From Leisingera aquaemixtae (GTDB lineage: Bacteria > Pseudomonadota > Alphaproteobacteria > Rhodobacterales > Rhodobacteraceae), in NCBI RefSeq assembly GCF_001458395.1, contig NZ_CYSR01000010.1, positions 62,001 to 126,000 on the forward strand: DNA of 64,000 nucleotides, read 5' to 3'. Positions within the stretch are counted from its first letter, which is position 1. Each line of letters opens with the position of its first letter. The notes under the pieces were generated by a model. The model saw nothing but the letters and a program-made list of their open reading frames with translations. It searched no databases and was not told the origin of the DNA. This document shows positions 52,725 to 64,000 of the stretch, piece by piece. Made by a program: the position numbers and the translations under genes.

Positions 52725-54500
52725 TCAGACCTGCTGTTCGCGCATGTCGGCCTTGTCGATGCCTGCCACGCGGACCGGCTTCTTCATGGCGTCACGGCGG
52801 AACGGCTCGCCCAGCTCCTGGTTGATCATCGCTTCGATCAATGTGGTGGTGCCGTTCTTTTGGTCTTCGATTGCCTGGGCCAGCGCCGAGGTCAGCTCGT
52901 CCATGGTGCGGGCAACCACGCCCTTCAGGCCGCAGGCCTTGGCGATGCCGGCATAAGACACCTGCTGGTCCAGCTCGGTGCCGACGAAGTTGTCATCGAA
53001 CCACAGGGTGGAGTTCCGCTTCTCCGCGCCCCATTGGTAGTTGCGGAAGACGATCTGGGTGACGGCGGGCCATTCGCCGCGGCCGATGGCGGTCAGCTCG
53101 TTCACCGCGATGCCAAAGGCACCGTCGCCGGAGAAGCCTACAACCGGGGTGTCCGGATTGCCGATCTTGGCGCCGACAACCGCCGGCAGGCCATAGCCGC
53201 ACGGGCCGAACAGGCCGGGGGCCAGGTACTTGCGGCCGGCCTCGAAGGACGGGTAGGCGTTGCCGATTGCGCAGTTGTTGCCAATGTCGGAGGAGATGAT
53301 TGCCTCTTTCGGCAGCGCGGCCTGAATGGCGCGCCAGGCCATGCGGGGGCTCATCCAGTCCGGCTTGTCGGCCCGGGCGCGCTCGTTCCAGGTGGTGCCC
53401 GGATCGTCGTCCTCGTGGGTCATCTCTGTCAGCTGCTGCGCCCAGCGGGATTTGGTTTCCGCGATACGGTTCTTGCGCTCGGCGCGGCCCTCGTCGCCGG
53501 CGGTGTCAGACAGCTGCGCCAGGATGCCCTGCGCCACCTTGGCGGCGTCGCCGATGATGCCGACGGAGACTTTCTTGGTCAGGCCGATGCGGTCCGGGTT
53601 GATGTCGACCTGGATGATCTTGGCATTGGCGGGCCAGTACTCCATGCCGTAACCCGGCAGGGTGGAGAACGGGTTCAGGCGGGTGCCGAGGCAGAGGACG
53701 ACGTCGGCGTCCTTGATCAGCTCCATGCCTGCCTTGGAGCCGTTGTAGCCCAGCGGGCCTGCAAACAGCGGGTGCGAGCCGGGGAAGGCGTCATTGTGCT
53801 GGTAGCCGACGCAGACCGGGGCATCCAGGCGCTCGGCCAGTTCCTTGGACGCCTCAATGCCCCCCTTGGACAGGACAACACCTGCACCGTTCAGGATCAC
53901 CGGGTTCTTGGCCCCGGACAGCAGCTTGGCGGCTTCGGCCACCGCGGTCTCGCCGCCGGCGGGGCGCTCGAACTCGACGATGGCTGGCAGTTCGATGTCG
54001 ATGACCTGGGTCCACATGTCCCGCGGGATGTTCAGCTGGGCCGGGGCGGAGGCGCGCTTGGCGTTCATGATCACCCGGTTCAGCACTTCGGCCACGCGGG
54101 AGGGATCGCGCACTTCTTCCTGGTAGCAGACGCAGTCGGCGAACATGCGCATCTGCTCCATCTCCTGGAAGCCGCCTTGGCCGATGGTCTTGTTGGCCGC
54201 CTGCGGGGTGACCAGCAGCAGCGGGGTGTGGTTCCAGTAGGCGGTCTTGACGGCGGTCACGAAGTTGGTGATGCCGGGGCCGTTCTGGGCGATCATCATC
54301 GACATCTTGCCGGTGGCGCGGGTGTAGCCGTCAGCCATCATGCCGCCGGAGCCTTCGTGGGCGCAGTCCCAGAAGGTGATGCCTGCGGCGGGGAAGATGT
54401 CGGAAATCGGCATCATGGCAGAGCCGATGATGCCAAACGCGTGCTGGATGCCATGCATCTGCAGCGTTTTGACGAAGGCTTCTTCGGTGGTCATTTTCAT
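52725..54500 (-). CDS. xsc: Sulfoacetaldehyde acetyltransferase
   Basis: ThDP enzyme (591 aa) converting sulfoacetaldehyde and phosphate to acetyl phosphate and sulfite, the key desulfonation step. The activating Glu is E49 in DCAHEGSGGMMADGYTRATG. The ThDP motif is GDGAFGIAVNELTAIGRGEWPAVTQIVFRN. The RNYQWGAEKRN segment and C-terminal LGEPFRRDAMKKPVRVAGI are typical of Xsc. It leads the xsc-tauE-ackA-yeiH-soeABC strand order and has TauR-like repeats upstream. Confidence 0.95.
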   Translation of the reverse strand: MKMTTEEAFVKTLQMHGIQHAFGIIGSAMMPISDIFPAAGITFWDCAHEGSGGMMADGYTRATGKMSMMIAQNGPGITNFVTAVKTAYWNHTPLLLVTPQAANKTIGQGGFQEMEQMRMFADCVCYQEEVRDPSRVAEVLNRVIMNAKRASAPAQLNIPRDMWTQVIDIELPAIVEFERPAGGETAVAEAAKLLSGAKNPVILNGAGVVLSKGGIEASKELAERLDAPVCVGYQHNDAFPGSHPLFAGPLGYNGSKAGMELIKDADVVLCLGTRLNPFSTLPGYGMEYWPANAKIIQVDINPDRIGLTKKVSVGIIGDAAKVAQGILAQLSDTAGDEGRAERKNRIAETKSRWAQQLTEMTHEDDDPGTTWNERARADKPDWMSPRMAWRAIQAALPKEAIISSDIGNNCAIGNAYPSFEAGRKYLAPGLFGPCGYGLPAVVGAKIGNPDTPVVGFSGDGAFGIAVNELTAIGRGEWPAVTQIVFRNYQWGAEKRNSTLWFDDNFVGTELDQQVSYAGIAKACGLKGVVARTMDELTSALAQAIEDQKNGTTTLIEAMINQELGEPFRRDAMKKPVRVAGIDKADMREQQV

Positions 54501-56535: not shown

Positions 56536-56847
56536 ATGCAATGGGAAGAAGCCGCACAGGGATTTGCCGCGATGGGATCGGAGGCGCGGCTGCAGGTGCT
56601 GCGCTGCCTGATCCGGGCGGGCGGGGCCGGGCTGACAGTCGGGGACATTCAGGAACGCACCGGCATTGCGCCCTCAACCCTGGCGCATCATCTGAAATTC
56701 CTTACCGGCGCCGGTGTGGTGGCGCAGGAACGGGTGGGGCGGTCGACCATCAGCCGCGCCGAATTCACCCGGCTGGAGGCACTGGCCGGTTTCATTCTCA
56801 GCGAATGCTGTGCGGATGCGGGCAAAGGGGCGGCGAACGATGGCTGA
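56536..56847 (+). CDS. ArsR/SmtB family transcriptional regulator
   Basis: Metal- or stress-responsive winged-helix repressor (103 aa). The DNA-binding region is LTVGDIQERTGIAPSTLAHHLKFLTGAGVVAQERVGRSTISR, with the C-terminal Cys pair SECCADAGKG as a plausible metal ligand. It has AAGTGGAGCAGC upstream and a palindromic operator. Overlaps the permease start by 8 bp, so they form a repressor-transporter unit. Confidence 0.88.
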   Translation: MQWEEAAQGFAAMGSEARLQVLRCLIRAGGAGLTVGDIQERTGIAPSTLAHHLKFLTGAGVVAQERVGRSTISRAEFTRLEALAGFILSECCADAGKGAANDG

Positions 56848-57871
56848 ACTGACACTAACCCCCGGTAAGGCAAAAACACTGGGCAGCTGGCTGAAGACAC
56901 CCTGGGCGCTGAGCCTTGCGCTGCTGGCAGGCGCTGCTGTCCTTGACCCCGGCAACTTCCGGTCTGTCGTGGAATTCACCCTGGCCGCGCTGGGCAGCAC
57001 GGCCCGCTACATCTTGCTTGCCGTTCTGCTGCTCGCCTATCTCAAGGCGACGGGCGCCGAGGCCATGGTGGCGCGCGCTTTTGAGGGGCGGGAGACGCGA
57101 ATGATCCTGCTGGCGGCGCTGTTCGGCGGGCTGGCACCGTTCTGCTCCTGCGAGGTGATCCCGTTCATTGCGGGCCTGCTGGCGCTGGGTGCGCCGCTGT
57201 CGGCGGTGATGGCCTTCTGGCTGTCCTCGCCGCTGATCGACCCGCCGACGCTGCTGATCACCGCAGGCGCGCTGGGCTGGCCCTTTGCCATTGGCAAGGC
57301 GGTGGCGGCGGTGGCGCTGGGGCTGTTCGGTGGTTTTGCCATCAAGCTGCTGCGGGGGCAGGGCGTTTTTGCGAATCCGCTCCGTAAGCAGGAGGCCAAG
57401 AGCTGCTGCGGCTGCGGCGGGCCAAAACCGGACGCCAAGCCGAACTGGCGGTTCTGGACTGAGGCAGAGCGCAAGGTGACATTCCGCGAGGAGTTCGTCT
57501 CCAACGGTCTGTTTTTGCTGAAGTGGCTGGCGCTGGCCTATGTGCTGGAATCGCTTCTGGTCCACTATGTGCCGGCTGGTGTGATCGCCGGGCTGGTGGG
57601 CGGTGAAGGCGTGCTGCCGATTGCCATTGCAGCGCTGGTCGGGATGCCTGCATACCTCAATTCCTATGTCGCGCCGCCGCTGCTGGCGGGGCTGATGGAA
57701 CAGGGAATGAGCGCAGGCGCGGCCATGGCCTTCATGGTGGCAGGGGCGGTCAGTTCGGTTCCTGCGATGGCGGCGGTCTGGTCGCTGGTTAGACCGCAGG
57801 TATTTGCCGCTTACCTGGGACTTGGGGTGAGCGGCGCGATCCTGTCGGGCATTCTGTTCCAGCTGATCTGA
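56840..57871 (+). CDS. Permease of the DUF318/ArsP-like family (COG0701)
   Basis: Integral membrane permease (343 aa, two four-helix halves). Signatures: GGLAPFCSCEVIPFIAGLLALGAPLSAVMAFWLSSPLIDPPTLLITAG and AALVGMPAYLNSYVAPPLLAGLMEQGMSAGAAMAFMVAGAVSSVPAMAAV. A Cys-rich loop CCGCGG lies between the halves. Relatives include ArsP, an exporter of trivalent organoarsenicals. With an ArsR-type partner, metalloid or metal export is likely. A sulfonate-related role cannot be excluded because it interrupts the taurine locus. Confidence 0.85.
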   Translation: MAELTLTPGKAKTLGSWLKTPWALSLALLAGAAVLDPGNFRSVVEFTLAALGSTARYILLAVLLLAYLKATGAEAMVARAFEGRETRMILLAALFGGLAPFCSCEVIPFIAGLLALGAPLSAVMAFWLSSPLIDPPTLLITAGALGWPFAIGKAVAAVALGLFGGFAIKLLRGQGVFANPLRKQEAKSCCGCGGPKPDAKPNWRFWTEAERKVTFREEFVSNGLFLLKWLALAYVLESLLVHYVPAGVIAGLVGGEGVLPIAIAALVGMPAYLNSYVAPPLLAGLMEQGMSAGAAMAFMVAGAVSSVPAMAAVWSLVRPQVFAAYLGLGVSGAILSGILFQLI

Positions 57872-58159: not shown

Positions 58160-59557
58160 TCAGCCGAATACTTTGGTCAGGGCCTTGTCGACCGCGTCGC
58201 AGATTGCGTCGATATCGTCTGCGGTGGCGATCAGCGCCGGGCTGAAGCACAGGGTGTTGTTGCGCCCCGGCAGCGAGCGGTTGGTCACGCCGATGATCAC
58301 CCCCTGCGCGCCGCATTCCGCGACCACCTGCTGGGCCAGCTTCTCGTCCACCGGCTCCTTGGTGTCGCGGTCCTGAACCAGCTCGGCACCCAGGAACAAC
58401 CCCTTGCCGCGCACGTCGCCGATCACGGCGTGCTTTTCCTGCAGCTTGCGCAGGTTGTTCAGCATCCGCTCACCCATGGCAACGCAGTTGTCCAGCAGGT
58501 TCTCGTCCTCGATGATGCGCATGTTTTCCAGCGCCGCTGCGGGGCCCGCGGTGCAGCCGCCGAAGGTGGAGATGTCGCGGAAGTAGTTCATCGGATCGCC
58601 CGCGTCGTCCTTGAACATCTCAAAGACTTCCTCGGTGGTCACCATGCAGGCAATTGCGGCATAGCCGGAGGCGACGCCCTTGGCCATGGTCACAAAGTCC
58701 GGCTTGATGCCGTACTGCTGGTAGCCGAACCATTTGCCGGTGCGGCCGACACCGCAGACCACTTCGTCGATGTGCAGCAGGATGTCATACTTCTGGCAGA
58801 TCTCCTGCACGCGCTCCCAATAGCCTTCGGGGGCTTCGATGACACCGCCGCCTGCGGTCACCGGCTCCAGGCACAGGGCGCCAACGGTTTCCGGGCCTTC
58901 GCGCAGGATCACTTCCTCGATGGCGTCTGCAGCGGCGATACCAAATTCGCGGCCGGAAAGGTGCTCCAGGCCCAGCTCATGCTTGCGGTATTCCATGCAG
59001 TGCGGCACGCGGACAAAGTCCGGCGCAAAGGGGCCGTACTGCGCGTTGCGCTCGTCCTGGCCGCCCGCCGACATGGTGGCCAGGGTGGAGCCGTGATAGT
59101 CGCGGTCGCGGTACAGGATTTTGGTCTTTTTGCCGCCGTATTTCTTGTGGGCGATCTGGCGGATCATCTTAAAGGCCTTCTCGTTGGCCTCCGATCCGGA
59201 GTTGGTGTAGTAGACGCGGGTCATGCCCGGCATCTTGGAGATCAGCTTTTCAGCAAACAGCGCGCCAGGGATGGAGCCGGCCGAGTTGGCAAAATAGCAG
59301 ACCTTCATCAGCTGGTCGTAAACGGCCTTGCAGACGCTCTCGCGGCCATAGCCGACGTTGACGGTCCAGACCCCGCCGGAAACCGCATCTAGGAATTCCT
59401 TGCCGTTCTGATCCCAGACACGCATGCCCTTGCCTTCGACAATGATGCGCGGATCCGCGCTTTCCAGCGCCTTGTGCTGGAACAGGTGGTGCCACATGTG
59501 GGCCTTGTCGGCCTCCACCACGCGGGAGAGATCGTTTTCGTTGAACGTGCCGTCCAT
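58160..59557 (-). CDS. tpa: Taurine-pyruvate aminotransferase
   Basis: Class III PLP aminotransferase (465 aa) converting taurine and pyruvate to sulfoacetaldehyde and alanine. PLP lysine K293 in VTMAKGVASGY, D264 in HIDEVVCGVGRTG, and YYTNSGSEANEKAFK near 117-131. The N-terminus MDGTFNENDLSRVVEADKAHMWHHLFQHK is specific to Tpa among omega-aminotransferases. It lies apart from xsc, separated by tauR and the ArsR-permease pair. Its promoter region contains TauR-like direct repeats. Confidence 0.95.
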   Translation of the reverse strand: MDGTFNENDLSRVVEADKAHMWHHLFQHKALESADPRIIVEGKGMRVWDQNGKEFLDAVSGGVWTVNVGYGRESVCKAVYDQLMKVCYFANSAGSIPGALFAEKLISKMPGMTRVYYTNSGSEANEKAFKMIRQIAHKKYGGKKTKILYRDRDYHGSTLATMSAGGQDERNAQYGPFAPDFVRVPHCMEYRKHELGLEHLSGREFGIAAADAIEEVILREGPETVGALCLEPVTAGGGVIEAPEGYWERVQEICQKYDILLHIDEVVCGVGRTGKWFGYQQYGIKPDFVTMAKGVASGYAAIACMVTTEEVFEMFKDDAGDPMNYFRDISTFGGCTAGPAAALENMRIIEDENLLDNCVAMGERMLNNLRKLQEKHAVIGDVRGKGLFLGAELVQDRDTKEPVDEKLAQQVVAECGAQGVIIGVTNRSLPGRNNTLCFSPALIATADDIDAICDAVDKALTKVFG

Positions 59558-59657: not shown

Positions 59658-59690
59658 TTAGGGCCAGAGCATTTGCTTGCTTAGGTCCAG
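59658..59690. promoter_or_regulatory. TauR-like direct repeat between tpa and the BKACE operon
   Basis: On the minus strand CTGGACCTAA (59690-59681) and CTGGCCCTAA (59667-59658) lie 23 bp apart, about 100-130 bp before tpa and 160-190 bp before the divergent BKACE gene. The rest of the 291-bp gap shows nothing else clear. Confidence 0.7.
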
Positions 59691-59848
59691 AGGCGGCACC
59701 CGGGCGCGAGGCGGCGGCGGACCGCAGGTGCGGGCAGATAAAACAAATGTTCTGACGCTGTATCCTTGAGACCGGATGTGCCGACGGGCCAAGCTGCGGG
59801 CAGCCCGGATACGAGTCGCACCGGGTCAGGCGGCAACGGAGGAGAGCG

Positions 59849-60628
59849 GTGGAATACAGTTTGATGGTGGCGCCCAACGGGGCCCGGCGGGGGCGCGGGG
59901 ATCACCCGCAGCTGCCGGTGACGCCGCAGCAGACGGCGGAAACCGCAGCGGCCTGTTTCGCTGCAGGTGCCCACGCGCTGCATCTGCATGTGCGCGATGG
60001 TGACGGGCGGCACTCGCTGGATGCTGGGCGCTACCGCGAAGCCCTTGATGCGGTGCGCGAAAGCGCGCCGGAAATGGCGGTGCAAATCACCACGGAAAGC
60101 GCCGGCATCTATGATGTGGCGGCCCAGTTCGCCTGTCTGGAGGCGCTGCGCCCGGCAGCGGCCTCTGTCTCGGTGCGGGAAATGGCGCGGGATCCGGACC
60201 TGGCCGCGCGCGCCTACGCCTTATGTGCGGAGGCAGGCACGCAGGTGCAGCATATTCTATACGGTCCGGACTGCATCGCCCGGCTGCGCGTCTGGTATCA
60301 GGACGGCATTGTCCCGGCTGCCATGCGCCATGCGATCTTTGTCTTGGGCAAATACACTCCGCCGGTTCTGGCCCGGCCCGAAGGGCTTGCTGTCTTTCAG
60401 GACGCTGCGGCGGATCTGCGCCTCAGCTGGGCTGCCTGCGCCTTTGGCCGCAATGAGCAAGCCTGCCTGCTGGCGGCGGTTGCCGCTGGAGGGGATGCGC
60501 GAATCGGATTTGAGAATAACATCGAAACACCGGATGGCGGGCTGCTGGCAGACAATGCGGCCTCTGTTACCGCCTTCGTTCAGGCCGCAAAGGCCCAGGG
60601 CCATACCCTCAAGGAGTGCCGATCATGA
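59849..60628 (+). CDS. BKACE (DUF849) family beta-keto acid cleavage enzyme
   Basis: TIM-barrel zinc enzyme (259 aa) of the beta-keto acid cleavage family, which joins a beta-keto acid with acetyl-CoA to give acetoacetate and an acyl-CoA. Zinc ligands HLHVRD near 45-50, MVAPNGARRG at the N-terminus and RIGFENNIETPDG near the C-terminus are visible. It has a GTG start after GGAGGAGAGCG. Coupled by ATGA overlap to a class III aminotransferase, suggesting a pathway that turns a beta-amino acid into a beta-keto acid and cleaves it. True substrate unknown. Confidence 0.85.
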   Translation: MEYSLMVAPNGARRGRGDHPQLPVTPQQTAETAAACFAAGAHALHLHVRDGDGRHSLDAGRYREALDAVRESAPEMAVQITTESAGIYDVAAQFACLEALRPAAASVSVREMARDPDLAARAYALCAEAGTQVQHILYGPDCIARLRVWYQDGIVPAAMRHAIFVLGKYTPPVLARPEGLAVFQDAAADLRLSWAACAFGRNEQACLLAAVAAGGDARIGFENNIETPDGGLLADNAASVTAFVQAAKAQGHTLKECRS

Positions 60629-61953
60629 GTCATGTCTTTCCCCGCCACACCAAAGCCAGCCTGCCCACCGCCGTTGCCGGTGACGGCTGCTATCTGATCG
60701 ACGCGGACGGCAAGCGCTATTTCGATGGCTCCGGCGGCGCCGCGGTCTCCTGCCTTGGCCATTCCGACGCCGATGTGATCAAGGCGGTGCAGGAGCAGGT
60801 CGGCAAGCTGGCCTTTGCTCATACCGGCTTTCTCACTTCGGAACCGGCGGAGGAACTGGCGGACCTGCTGGTGGCCAACGCGCCGGGGGACATTGACCGG
60901 GTCTATTTCGTTTCCGGCGGGTCGGAGGCGACCGAGGCTGCCATCAAACTGGCCCGCCAGTACCACCTGGAGCGCGGCGAGCCGCAGCGCCGGCACATCA
61001 TCGCCCGCAAGCAGAGCTACCACGGCAACACCCTTGGAGCGCTGGCCGCTGGCGGCAATGAATGGCGCCGCACCCAGTTTGCACCGCTGCTGATCGGCAT
61101 CTCCCACATCTCACCCTGTTACGAATACACCGGCCGGGGAGAGGGCGAGAGCAGCTATGACTACGGCCAGCGGGTGGCAAATGAGCTGGAAGCGGAAATC
61201 CTGCGCCTTGGCCCGGATTCGGTGATGGCCTTCATGGCGGAGCCGGTTGTCGGCGCCACCTCCGGTGCGGTGCCGGCAGTTGAGGGCTATTTCAAGCGCA
61301 TCCGCGAGATCTGCGACCAGTACGGCGTGCTGCTGATCCTGGATGAGGTGATGTGCGGTATGGGCCGCACCGGGCATCTGTTCGCCTGCGAGGCGGATGG
61401 CGTGGCGCCCGATATCCTGTGTATCGCCAAGGGGTTGGGGGCCGGTTACCAGCCGATCGGCGCGATGCTCTGCACCCGGCAGATTTATGAGGCGATCGAG
61501 CATGGCTCCGGTTTCTTCCAGCACGGCCACACCTATATCGGCCATCCCGTAGCGACCGCTGCGGGCCTCGCCGTGGTCAAGGCGATGCTGGAGCGCGGCC
61601 TGGTGCAGCGCTGCGCTGAGATGGGAGAGAAGTTGCAGGCGGCGCTGGAGGAGCGTTTCGGCCAGCATCCCAACGTGGGCGACATCCGCGGCCGCGGCCT
61701 GTTCCGCGGGGTGGAGCTGGTGGCCGACCGCGCCACCAAGCAGCCGTTTGATCCCGCGCTGGGACTGGCCGGGCGGATCAAGAAGGCAGCCTTTCAGGCC
61801 GGGCTGATCTGCTACCCGATGGCGGGCACCCGCGACGGCCGGAACGGCGACCACATCCTGCTGGCGCCGCCCTTCATCATCACCGAGGAGCAGATCACCG
61901 AGGTGGTGGACAAGCTGGAAACCGCGATCGCCCAGTGCCTGCCGCAGGGGTGA
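60625..61953 (+). CDS. Class III aminotransferase (beta-/omega-amino acid type)
   Basis: PLP aminotransferase (442 aa). PLP lysine K269 in LCIAKGLGAGYQPIGAM, D240 in LILDEVMCGMGRTG, and YFVSGGSEATEAAIKLARQ near 94-112. It resembles aspartate-aminotransferase-family omega-aminotransferases rather than Tpa itself. ATG at 60625 overlaps the BKACE stop. Likely donor substrate is a beta-amino acid or diamine whose keto product feeds BKACE. It could also be a second taurine or hypotaurine aminotransferase. Confidence 0.9.
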   Translation: MSHVFPRHTKASLPTAVAGDGCYLIDADGKRYFDGSGGAAVSCLGHSDADVIKAVQEQVGKLAFAHTGFLTSEPAEELADLLVANAPGDIDRVYFVSGGSEATEAAIKLARQYHLERGEPQRRHIIARKQSYHGNTLGALAAGGNEWRRTQFAPLLIGISHISPCYEYTGRGEGESSYDYGQRVANELEAEILRLGPDSVMAFMAEPVVGATSGAVPAVEGYFKRIREICDQYGVLLILDEVMCGMGRTGHLFACEADGVAPDILCIAKGLGAGYQPIGAMLCTRQIYEAIEHGSGFFQHGHTYIGHPVATAAGLAVVKAMLERGLVQRCAEMGEKLQAALEERFGQHPNVGDIRGRGLFRGVELVADRATKQPFDPALGLAGRIKKAAFQAGLICYPMAGTRDGRNGDHILLAPPFIITEEQITEVVDKLETAIAQCLPQG

Positions 61954-62969: not shown

Positions 62970-64000
62970 ATGTCCCGCATAGACACGCTGCTTTCCCCCT
63001 TCCCCCGGGCCAGCCTGCTGTCGCAGCCGACCCCGCTGGAGCGGCTGGACCGCCTGTCGCAGGAGCTGGGCCTCGACCTCTGGATCAAGCGCGATGACCT
63101 CACGGGCCTCAGCTTTGGCGGCAACAAGACCCGGCAGCTGGAGTTCTATATCGGCGCTGCGCTGGCGGCCCGGGCGGACACCATCCTGATCACCGGCGCG
63201 GTGCAGTCGAACTTTACCCGCACCGCCGCCGCGGCGGCCGCGAAATACGGGATGCAGGCGGTATTGCAGCGGGAGGAGCGGGTGCCCGGAATGGACCCGC
63301 TCTACCACCGTTCGGGCAATGTCTTCCTGGCGGATATACTGGGTGCAGATATCATGAGTTATCCGGAAGGGGAGGACGAGGCCGGCGCGGATGCCGCATT
63401 GGAAGCGCGGGCAGAGCAGCTGCGCGCGGCAGGCCGCACTCCTTACATCATCCCGCTGGCGCTTGGCCATCCGCCGCTGGGCGCGCTGGGCTATGTTCGG
63501 GGCGGGGCGGAACTGGCGGCGCAAATTGGCGGTTTTGATGCCGCGGTGGTGCCCTCGGGGAGCGGGGCCACCCATGGCGGGTTCCTGACCGGAGTGCGCC
63601 TGGCCGGCATTACCGCGCGGGTCTATGGTATCTGCGTGCGCCGCGATGCCCGGCAGCAAAAGGCGCGGTTGGAGCAGGTGACCGCAGAGCTGGCCAGGCT
63701 GATGAACATTCCGCGGCCGTTTTCCGGCGACGGCATCCTCACCTGGGACGGCGCCTTGGCACCCGGTTACGGCCGTGCAGGCGGCACGGCACGCGCCGCG
63801 CTCCAGCGCATGGCCGCGGCTGAGGGGATCCTGCTGGACCCGGTTTATTCCGCCAAGACCTTTGCCGGGCTGCTGGGGCTGCTGGAACAGGGCATCATCC
63901 GCAAGGGGCAGAAAGTGCTGCTGCTGCACACCGGCGGGCTGCCCGCGCTGTTTGCCTATCAGAACGCGCTCGGCTTCGGCAGCGGCGCAGGCGCGCCATG
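62970..64000 (+). CDS. D-cysteine desulfhydrase / CuyA-like PLP lyase (cut by the window edge)
   Basis: Fold-type II PLP enzyme of the ACC-deaminase/D-cysteine desulfhydrase family. 343 codons are visible and the stop is probably the next base (TG at the edge). It has IKRDDLTGLSFGGNKTRQLEF with the PLP lysine, TGAVQSNFTRTAA, and LLDPVYSAKTFAGL and LLHTGGLPALF at the C-terminus. Relatives include L-cysteate sulfo-lyase CuyA, which would fit the sulfonate context. The SNH motif common in desulfhydrases is SNF here. The final ATG may also start an overlapping next gene. Confidence 0.8.
   Translation, partial: MSRIDTLLSPFPRASLLSQPTPLERLDRLSQELGLDLWIKRDDLTGLSFGGNKTRQLEFYIGAALAARADTILITGAVQSNFTRTAAAAAAKYGMQAVLQREERVPGMDPLYHRSGNVFLADILGADIMSYPEGEDEAGADAALEARAEQLRAAGRTPYIIPLALGHPPLGALGYVRGGAELAAQIGGFDAAVVPSGSGATHGGFLTGVRLAGITARVYGICVRRDARQQKARLEQVTAELARLMNIPRPFSGDGILTWDGALAPGYGRAGGTARAALQRMAAAEGILLDPVYSAKTFAGLLGLLEQGIIRKGQKVLLLHTGGLPALFAYQNALGFGSGAGAP

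Follow-up and report, generated by a model that had tools for sequence, protein, structure and literature searches.

A DUF849 and class III aminotransferase gene pair beside tpa in Leisingera aquaemixtae as the possible core of a recurring catabolic cluster for a glutamate-like beta-amino acid

The window, a stretch of 64,000 nucleotides from a contig of Leisingera aquaemixtae, holds two adjoining genes, one for a DUF849 protein and one for a class III aminotransferase, next to a tpa-type gene. This arrangement raises the question of what the pair does, and of whether its place beside tpa reflects a part in taurine or sulfonate metabolism.

The DUF849 gene (59849-60628, plus strand, GTG start) encodes 259 amino acids of a divergent, non-canonical 'BKACE' subfamily. 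Its product scores 185.6 bits against PF05853 (cut-off 24.8), which places it in the domain family, and 94.9 bits against NF052387, the equivalog for the Kce of lysine fermentation (cut-off 382). A lysine-type Kce was rejected on this score, far under the cut-off. The second gene (60625-61953, plus strand, ATG at 60625) encodes a 442-residue aminotransferase that matches PF00202 at 334.6 bits and belongs to the PRK07483/NF005685 family (773.7 bits, curated cut-off 485). The stop codon of the first gene and the start codon of the second overlap in ATGA, with AAGGAG preceding the aminotransferase start; the layout of the two genes reported in the initial annotation is confirmed.

We surveyed 295 genomes of the family, about one per genus, and found DUF849 homologues (E<=1e-20) in 78 of them, at 81 places. 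At least 555 confirmed stretches with relatives were found in a species-level genome collection. Neighbouring genes were mapped by tblastn in 120 loci, made up of stretches around 40 of the 81 places besides the window and of 80 named loci, which are the best 80 of the at least 555 confirmed stretches and are biased to window-like proteins. Of these loci, 112 carry distinct DUF849 proteins and are counted here as unique loci, the window being left out of the count.

In 93 of the 112 unique loci the aminotransferase (at least 55% identity) lies no more than 700 bp from DUF849. An RpiR regulator is present in 61/112, a TAXI gene within 8 kb in 45/112, a demethylase-like FAD/GcvT gene beside DUF849 in 23/112 and tpa in 11/112, with TAXI (45/45) and FAD/GcvT (23/23) occurring solely in aminotransferase-bearing loci. 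In the fullest layout RpiR, TAXI, a TRAP fused permease and Usp are divergent from an optional FAD/GcvT gene, DUF849 and the aminotransferase; some loci have the pair in reverse order, with the aminotransferase first. The cluster is a recurring one, mainly alphaproteobacterial. We know of no prior description of it, and none was found in the titles and abstracts of the papers listed on Kce, TRAP or TAXI plus aminotransferase or on cis-epoxysuccinate hydrolase.

The aminotransferase is absent nearby in 19/112 unique loci, among them L078, where the contig breaks off 42 bases beyond the match. In ten of 110 plasmid records that were viewed, it stands beside DUF849 in seven and not in three. A gene of the 3-hydroxy-acid dehydrogenase type is joined to DUF849 in plasmid loci L158 and L159, which lack the aminotransferase, and lies within 6 kb of DUF849 in L157, which lacks it too. 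The L158 dehydrogenase scores best as L-carnitine dehydrogenase, below the cut-off (279.4 vs 414). Such a partner fits another way to a 3-keto acid.

Three loci show particular layouts. In L053 (11426 onwards) a dehydrogenase-type gene, 59% identical to the DUF849-joined one in Microvirga, follows just after the aminotransferase, and both partner types are found in one locus. On a Skermanella plasmid (L157:2305-9810), DUF849 is surrounded by TAXI and TRAP permease genes and by genes of the 3-hydroxyacyl-CoA dehydrogenase type and the AtuA family, with no aminotransferase. Finally, a plasmid of Alloyangia pacifica (L155:7730-8982) carries short SIS-domain and hypothetical genes at the expected place of RpiR. 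DUF849 is directly preceded there by a 228-bp gene for a GcvT C-terminal part, and the layout looks like a decayed FAD/GcvT form.

The tpa-type class III aminotransferase gene (58160-59557, minus strand) is divergent from the pair, a neighbour that is probably outside the system. Among the 25 of 69 NCBIfam models listed for this gene none exceeds its cut-off, and we call it tpa because of its context, with xsc at 52725-54500 (TIGR03457, 921.2 bits), and of the conserved linkage. The gap between tpa and DUF849 measures 291 bp and contains, as the initial annotation had it, a TauR-type direct repeat. Its two copies, CTGGCCCTAA (59658-59667) and the exact CTGGACCTAA (59681-59690), match the TauR consensus CTGGACYTAA (PMC5320631) on the minus strand, that of tpa. 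The window has 6 matches to this consensus with at most one mismatch, against 2.24 expected; a count of 6 is attained by 2 of 100 shuffles. Two sites (at most two mismatches, 23 bp apart) occur in 11/12 tpa-linked gaps, the exception, L081, having one.

A repeat in the gap common to both units speaks for a side branch of taurine or sulfonate metabolism under TauR control, and so does the linkage with tpa being kept in loci of Leisingera, Phaeobacter, Pseudophaeobacter and Tritonibacter; among the best 80 of at least 555 confirmed stretches, the named loci nearest the window are Leisingera. However, both repeats are on the strand of tpa, a separate palindrome common to RpiR-linked loci precedes the pair (see below), and 101/112 unique loci have no tpa above 500 bits in the fetched stretch, some stretches being short contigs. 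The tpa linkage also has one origin on the tree of the pair (SH-aLRT 94). As for xsc (TIGR03457, E<=1e-100), it is present in 60/78 DUF849-positive and 132/217 negative genomes, a weak association in favour of such a branch (odds ratio 2.1, p=0.012, relatedness among the genomes being ignored). The co-occurrence with taurine genes that the initial annotation proposed to check is therefore weak for xsc and local for tpa, and we regard a taurine or sulfonate side branch as very improbable. That part of the earlier pathway proposal is not supported; what survives is a conserved two-gene unit, with a beta-amino acid and the matching beta-keto acid as plausible substrates.

The surroundings of tpa hold other genes as well. 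An ArsR-type regulator and an ArsP_1 permease (56536-57871) lie between tauR and tpa; the permease is SO_0444-like at 103.7 bits (cut-off 300), and relatives of both are at the same place in L034, L037, L075, L076, L081 and L083. Downstream of the pair, a PALP enzyme (62970-63998, frame open at the window end) is nearest to the D-cysteate sulfo-lyase CuyA, at 313.2 bits against a cut-off of 450. It is perhaps another sulfonate-type gene.

The DUF849 gene tracks the TAXI importer far more than taurine genes. A TAXI homologue (E<=1e-110) is found in 73/78 DUF849-positive vs 91/217 negative genomes (odds ratio 20, p=5e-17, again with relatedness ignored). As it is also common in genomes without DUF849, the TAXI class may mainly serve to take up L-glutamate. 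Across 50 loci, some of them duplicates, the TAXI proteins share 52-65% identity with VcGluP and have its key ligand residues, with S75 in 50/50, Q93 in 50/50, E125 in 49/50 and Y45 in all 29 proteins that cover it. Y45 and Q93 are decisive for L-glutamate in VcGluP (PMC11574862), and ligands of the TAXI family also include 2-oxoglutarate and orthophthalate (PMC12344293). The pocket residues indicate a glutamate-like ligand, not specifically the beta isomer.

Near the pair, the TAXI proteins are of two pocket types at positions 157/200/201, which in VcGluP touch the ligand via the main chain of 201, at the amino group, or via waters (PMC11574862). The type is T/W/A in loci with FAD/GcvT ahead of DUF849, and mostly Q/Y/T in the others. 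Among the 45 unique TAXI loci, W200/A201 is found in 20/20 with FAD/GcvT, and Y or F at 200 in 24/25 without it, the one W200 there being in L093; with duplicates included, W200 occurs in 23/23 vs 1/27. The FAD/pocket state changes seven times on the pair tree, four to five of the changes being forced by well-supported branches. The TAXI tree, some long rows aside, splits once between the pocket types (SH-aLRT 99). With respect to the pair, the importer type and FAD/GcvT move jointly, and the co-variation at position 200 is an exchange of modules from two clades, not 20 independent events.

Other importers were also seen. GlnHPQ together with a C45 hydrolase replaces TAXI in five loci (L131, L141, L145, L156 and L161), the GlnH of L156 scoring 390.9 against a cut-off of 303. 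A different ABC importer is carried by L154, whereas L162 lacks all of these importers. In 64/112 unique loci, TAXI within 8 kb and GlnHPQ are both absent.

Beside the pair in the window there is no importer, RpiR or FAD/GcvT gene. Elsewhere in this genome, and not linked to the pair, contig C30 carries a TAXI-TRAP-Usp set, whose TAXI gene (G000:C30:285747-286715) nests among the operon TAXIs of the FAD-less form. A close RpiR relative, also unlinked, is found at G000:C7:74660-75532, with 59% identity to that of the cluster. No close FAD/GcvT relative was found in this genome, the best being at 39%. By eye, the RpiR gene on C7 (L178:6637-7548) is a few kb from RepA/RepB-like plasmid genes, and this contig may be a plasmid.

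Upstream of the pair, at 59742-59751, lies AACAAATGTT, a copy of the palindrome AACANNTGTT and the sole one in the window, which the initial annotation did not mention. The 260 bp or so upstream of the operon contain the palindrome in 35/61 RpiR-linked, 9/11 tpa-linked and 3/40 other unique loci. In all 2,176,804 bases of the 120 loci there are 82 copies, operon-upstream ones included, or 0.01 per 260 bp. We take it as a candidate operator of the RpiR-type regulator. It was not found in the stretches fetched around the C30 TAXI set or the C7 RpiR gene. The simplest account of the Leisingera arrangement is a dispersed cluster that retains an old operator, with tpa as the newer neighbour.

We then come to the chemistry of the DUF849 protein, for which the initial annotation had assumed cleavage with acetyl-CoA. 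Its AlphaFold2 model is a confident TIM barrel (mean pLDDT 94.0) and has Kce (2y7e) as best fold match, with TM 0.90 by query length. Residues were counted in 41 homologues, the window protein and 40 others of the 81 places, mostly the best-scoring ones and chosen without regard to motifs. In the alignment the zinc-ligand positions His46, His48 and Glu230 (Kce numbering) are kept in 41/41, as is Arg226, and Tyr145 in 39/41. On the contrary, position 143, that of the catalytic base, is Ile in 41/41, and position 231, the Asp beside the zinc-ligand Glu, is Asn in 41/41. Asp231, following the zinc ligand, presumably has a catalytic role. Further changes are Glu14 to Arg (40/41), Gly84 to Glu (40/41) and Gly110 to Arg (38/41), and the stretch after Gly110 has 11-14 residues in the subfamily vs 18-20.

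Glu and Asp stand at positions 143 and 231 in 8/8 solved DUF849 proteins compared, those with displayed alignments (2y7d, 3no5, 3chv, 3fa5, 9zsc, 8rio, 3c6c and 3lot), a set to which 3e02, 3e49 and the cis-epoxysuccinate hydrolases do not belong. The same holds for the two further DUF849 proteins encoded in this genome. Asn231 was seen in 90/90 scanned loci, 10 plasmid loci included, a partly selected set since the scan patterns contained GFEN and APNGAR.

The base in question is E171 in BKACE15, where E171L abolishes activity; older work assigned an Arg as catalytic instead (PMC11961710), and that Arg is kept in the subfamily. We equate E171 with Kce E143 because Tyr173 corresponds to Tyr145 (PMC12871164) and the FECY motif aligns. 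An ordinary BKACE that follows the transamination and uses acetyl-CoA to cleave a beta-keto acid would agree with the PF05853 score and with the kept zinc, Arg226 and Tyr145 positions. Against it are both substitutions in 41/41, the loss of activity in E171L, the shortened stretch after Gly110 and the low Kce equivalog score, so this reading seems improbable and the acetyl-CoA step is contradicted by the residues. Judged by them, the subfamily is not an ordinary BKACE and lacks a residue needed for such cleavage. The label '3-keto-5-aminohexanoate cleavage protein', under which plasmid copies are annotated, is very probably wrong for it. Since the zinc site is kept and the base lost, we propose decarboxylation in place of acetyl-CoA cleavage. 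This proposal also draws on analogy with G6, one of two DUF849 groups (G6 and G7) outside the BKACEs; G6 acts as a decarboxylase, mostly on beta-ketoglutarate (PMC4922564).

Taken with partners that would form a 3-keto acid, the importer residues point to a glutamate- or glutamine-like compound with a 3-amine or 3-hydroxyl, which fits beta-glutamate and beta-glutamine. Our main reading, held at a probability of about 0.4, is that the pair forms the core of a cluster that catabolizes a glutamate-like beta-amino acid, with beta-glutamate (3-aminoglutarate) as the likeliest candidate, and that a decarboxylation follows the transamination. Substrate, direction, chemistry and regulation we infer as follows. 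Import would proceed by TAXI-TRAP-Usp or, in a few genomes, by GlnHPQ, under an RpiR regulator. Where present, the FAD/GcvT protein would first strip the N-methyl group from an N-methylated form brought in by the TAXI variant. The aminotransferase would then turn the beta-amino acid into a beta-keto dicarboxylate (3-oxoglutarate), and DUF849 would carry out a zinc-assisted decarboxylation of 3-oxoglutarate to acetoacetate, with no acetyl-CoA cleavage. Among Leisingera and its relatives, the pair would have come beside tpa once, with importer and regulator relatives elsewhere in the genome.

A complete pathway for beta-glutamate, beta-glutamine and N-methyl-beta-glutamate is a more speculative extension, and unlikely to hold in every part. 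It would run from TAXI-TRAP or GlnHPQ uptake through demethylation by FAD/GcvT, giving methylene-tetrahydrofolate, or amide hydrolysis by C45, and PRK07483 beta-transamination to 3-oxoglutarate, ending in acetoacetate by a DUF849 enzyme whose BKACE zinc site has become that of a decarboxylase, with RpiR acting at the operator AACANNTGTT. N-methyl-beta-glutamate is a marine natural product; a search of open-licence papers for this compound gave no match. Beta-glutamate and beta-glutamine are natural osmolytes, and osmolytes of the beta-glutamate type form nearly static pools in producing cells (PMC1224877).

The same cluster logic may well serve another substrate or another zinc chemistry, which we consider quite possible: for example a different dicarboxylic beta-amino acid or compounds of the N-methylaspartate or 3-methylaspartate type, with a hydrolytic or retro-aldol cleavage by DUF849. 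The fold family includes chemistries other than that of BKACEs, in cis-epoxysuccinate hydrolase and in BsfD (PMC12871164), group G7 was inactive on all substrates tested (PMC4922564), and the importer residues define a glutamate-like ligand and nothing narrower. There is, however, no positive evidence for any specific alternative, and the Arg at Kce position 14 (40/41) and the dehydrogenase partners fit a beta-keto dicarboxylate. Position 14, we assume, faces the far end of the substrate.

Several candidates were rejected. A homotaurine or GABA branch yields no beta-keto acid. A carnitine route would disagree with Arg in place of Glu at position 14, given the role assumed for it. Oxaloacetate or aspartate as sole substrate would not obviously call for an importer and a gene pair of its own, and is retained as a rival type.

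If beta-glutamate catabolism is indeed the role of the pair, these would be, to our knowledge, the first genes for the breakdown of beta-glutamate-type osmolytes; among the best-ranked matches in the open-licence literature, no paper on beta-glutamate catabolic genes was found. It would also offer a pocket change open to testing, in a family of importers for which few ligands are known.

Lastly, in terms of known systems, the importer compares with the TAXI-TRAP VcGluP/VcGluQM (8S4J), with which the near-pair TAXIs share their 52-65% identity, the key ligand residues and a Usp gene alongside. They differ from VcGluP at 157/200/201, fall in two clades and are linked to aminotransferase and DUF849, with none adjacent to the pair in the window. 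The canonical DUF849 cleavage enzymes Kce (2y7d-g) and BKACE15 (8rio/8rip/9hnf) are, like the DUF849 protein of the pair, TIM barrels with His46/His48/Glu230 and Arg226. The latter differs by Ile at Glu143/171, Asn at Asp231, mostly Arg14/Glu84/Arg110 and the shorter stretch after Gly110. Groups G6 and G7 (Bastard et al. 2014), compared here through their description in PMC4922564, are non-BKACE DUF849 proteins, as this one would be. BsfD of the flavophos cluster has the DUF849 fold, a chemistry that departs from that of BKACEs and a step of decarboxylation (PMC12871164), as proposed here. We take 9zsc to be BsfD because His48, His50, Glu247, Tyr251 and Lys254 of PMC12871164 fall on those letters; unlike the DUF849 protein of the pair, it keeps Glu and Asp at both positions, and it has another substrate and other partners.
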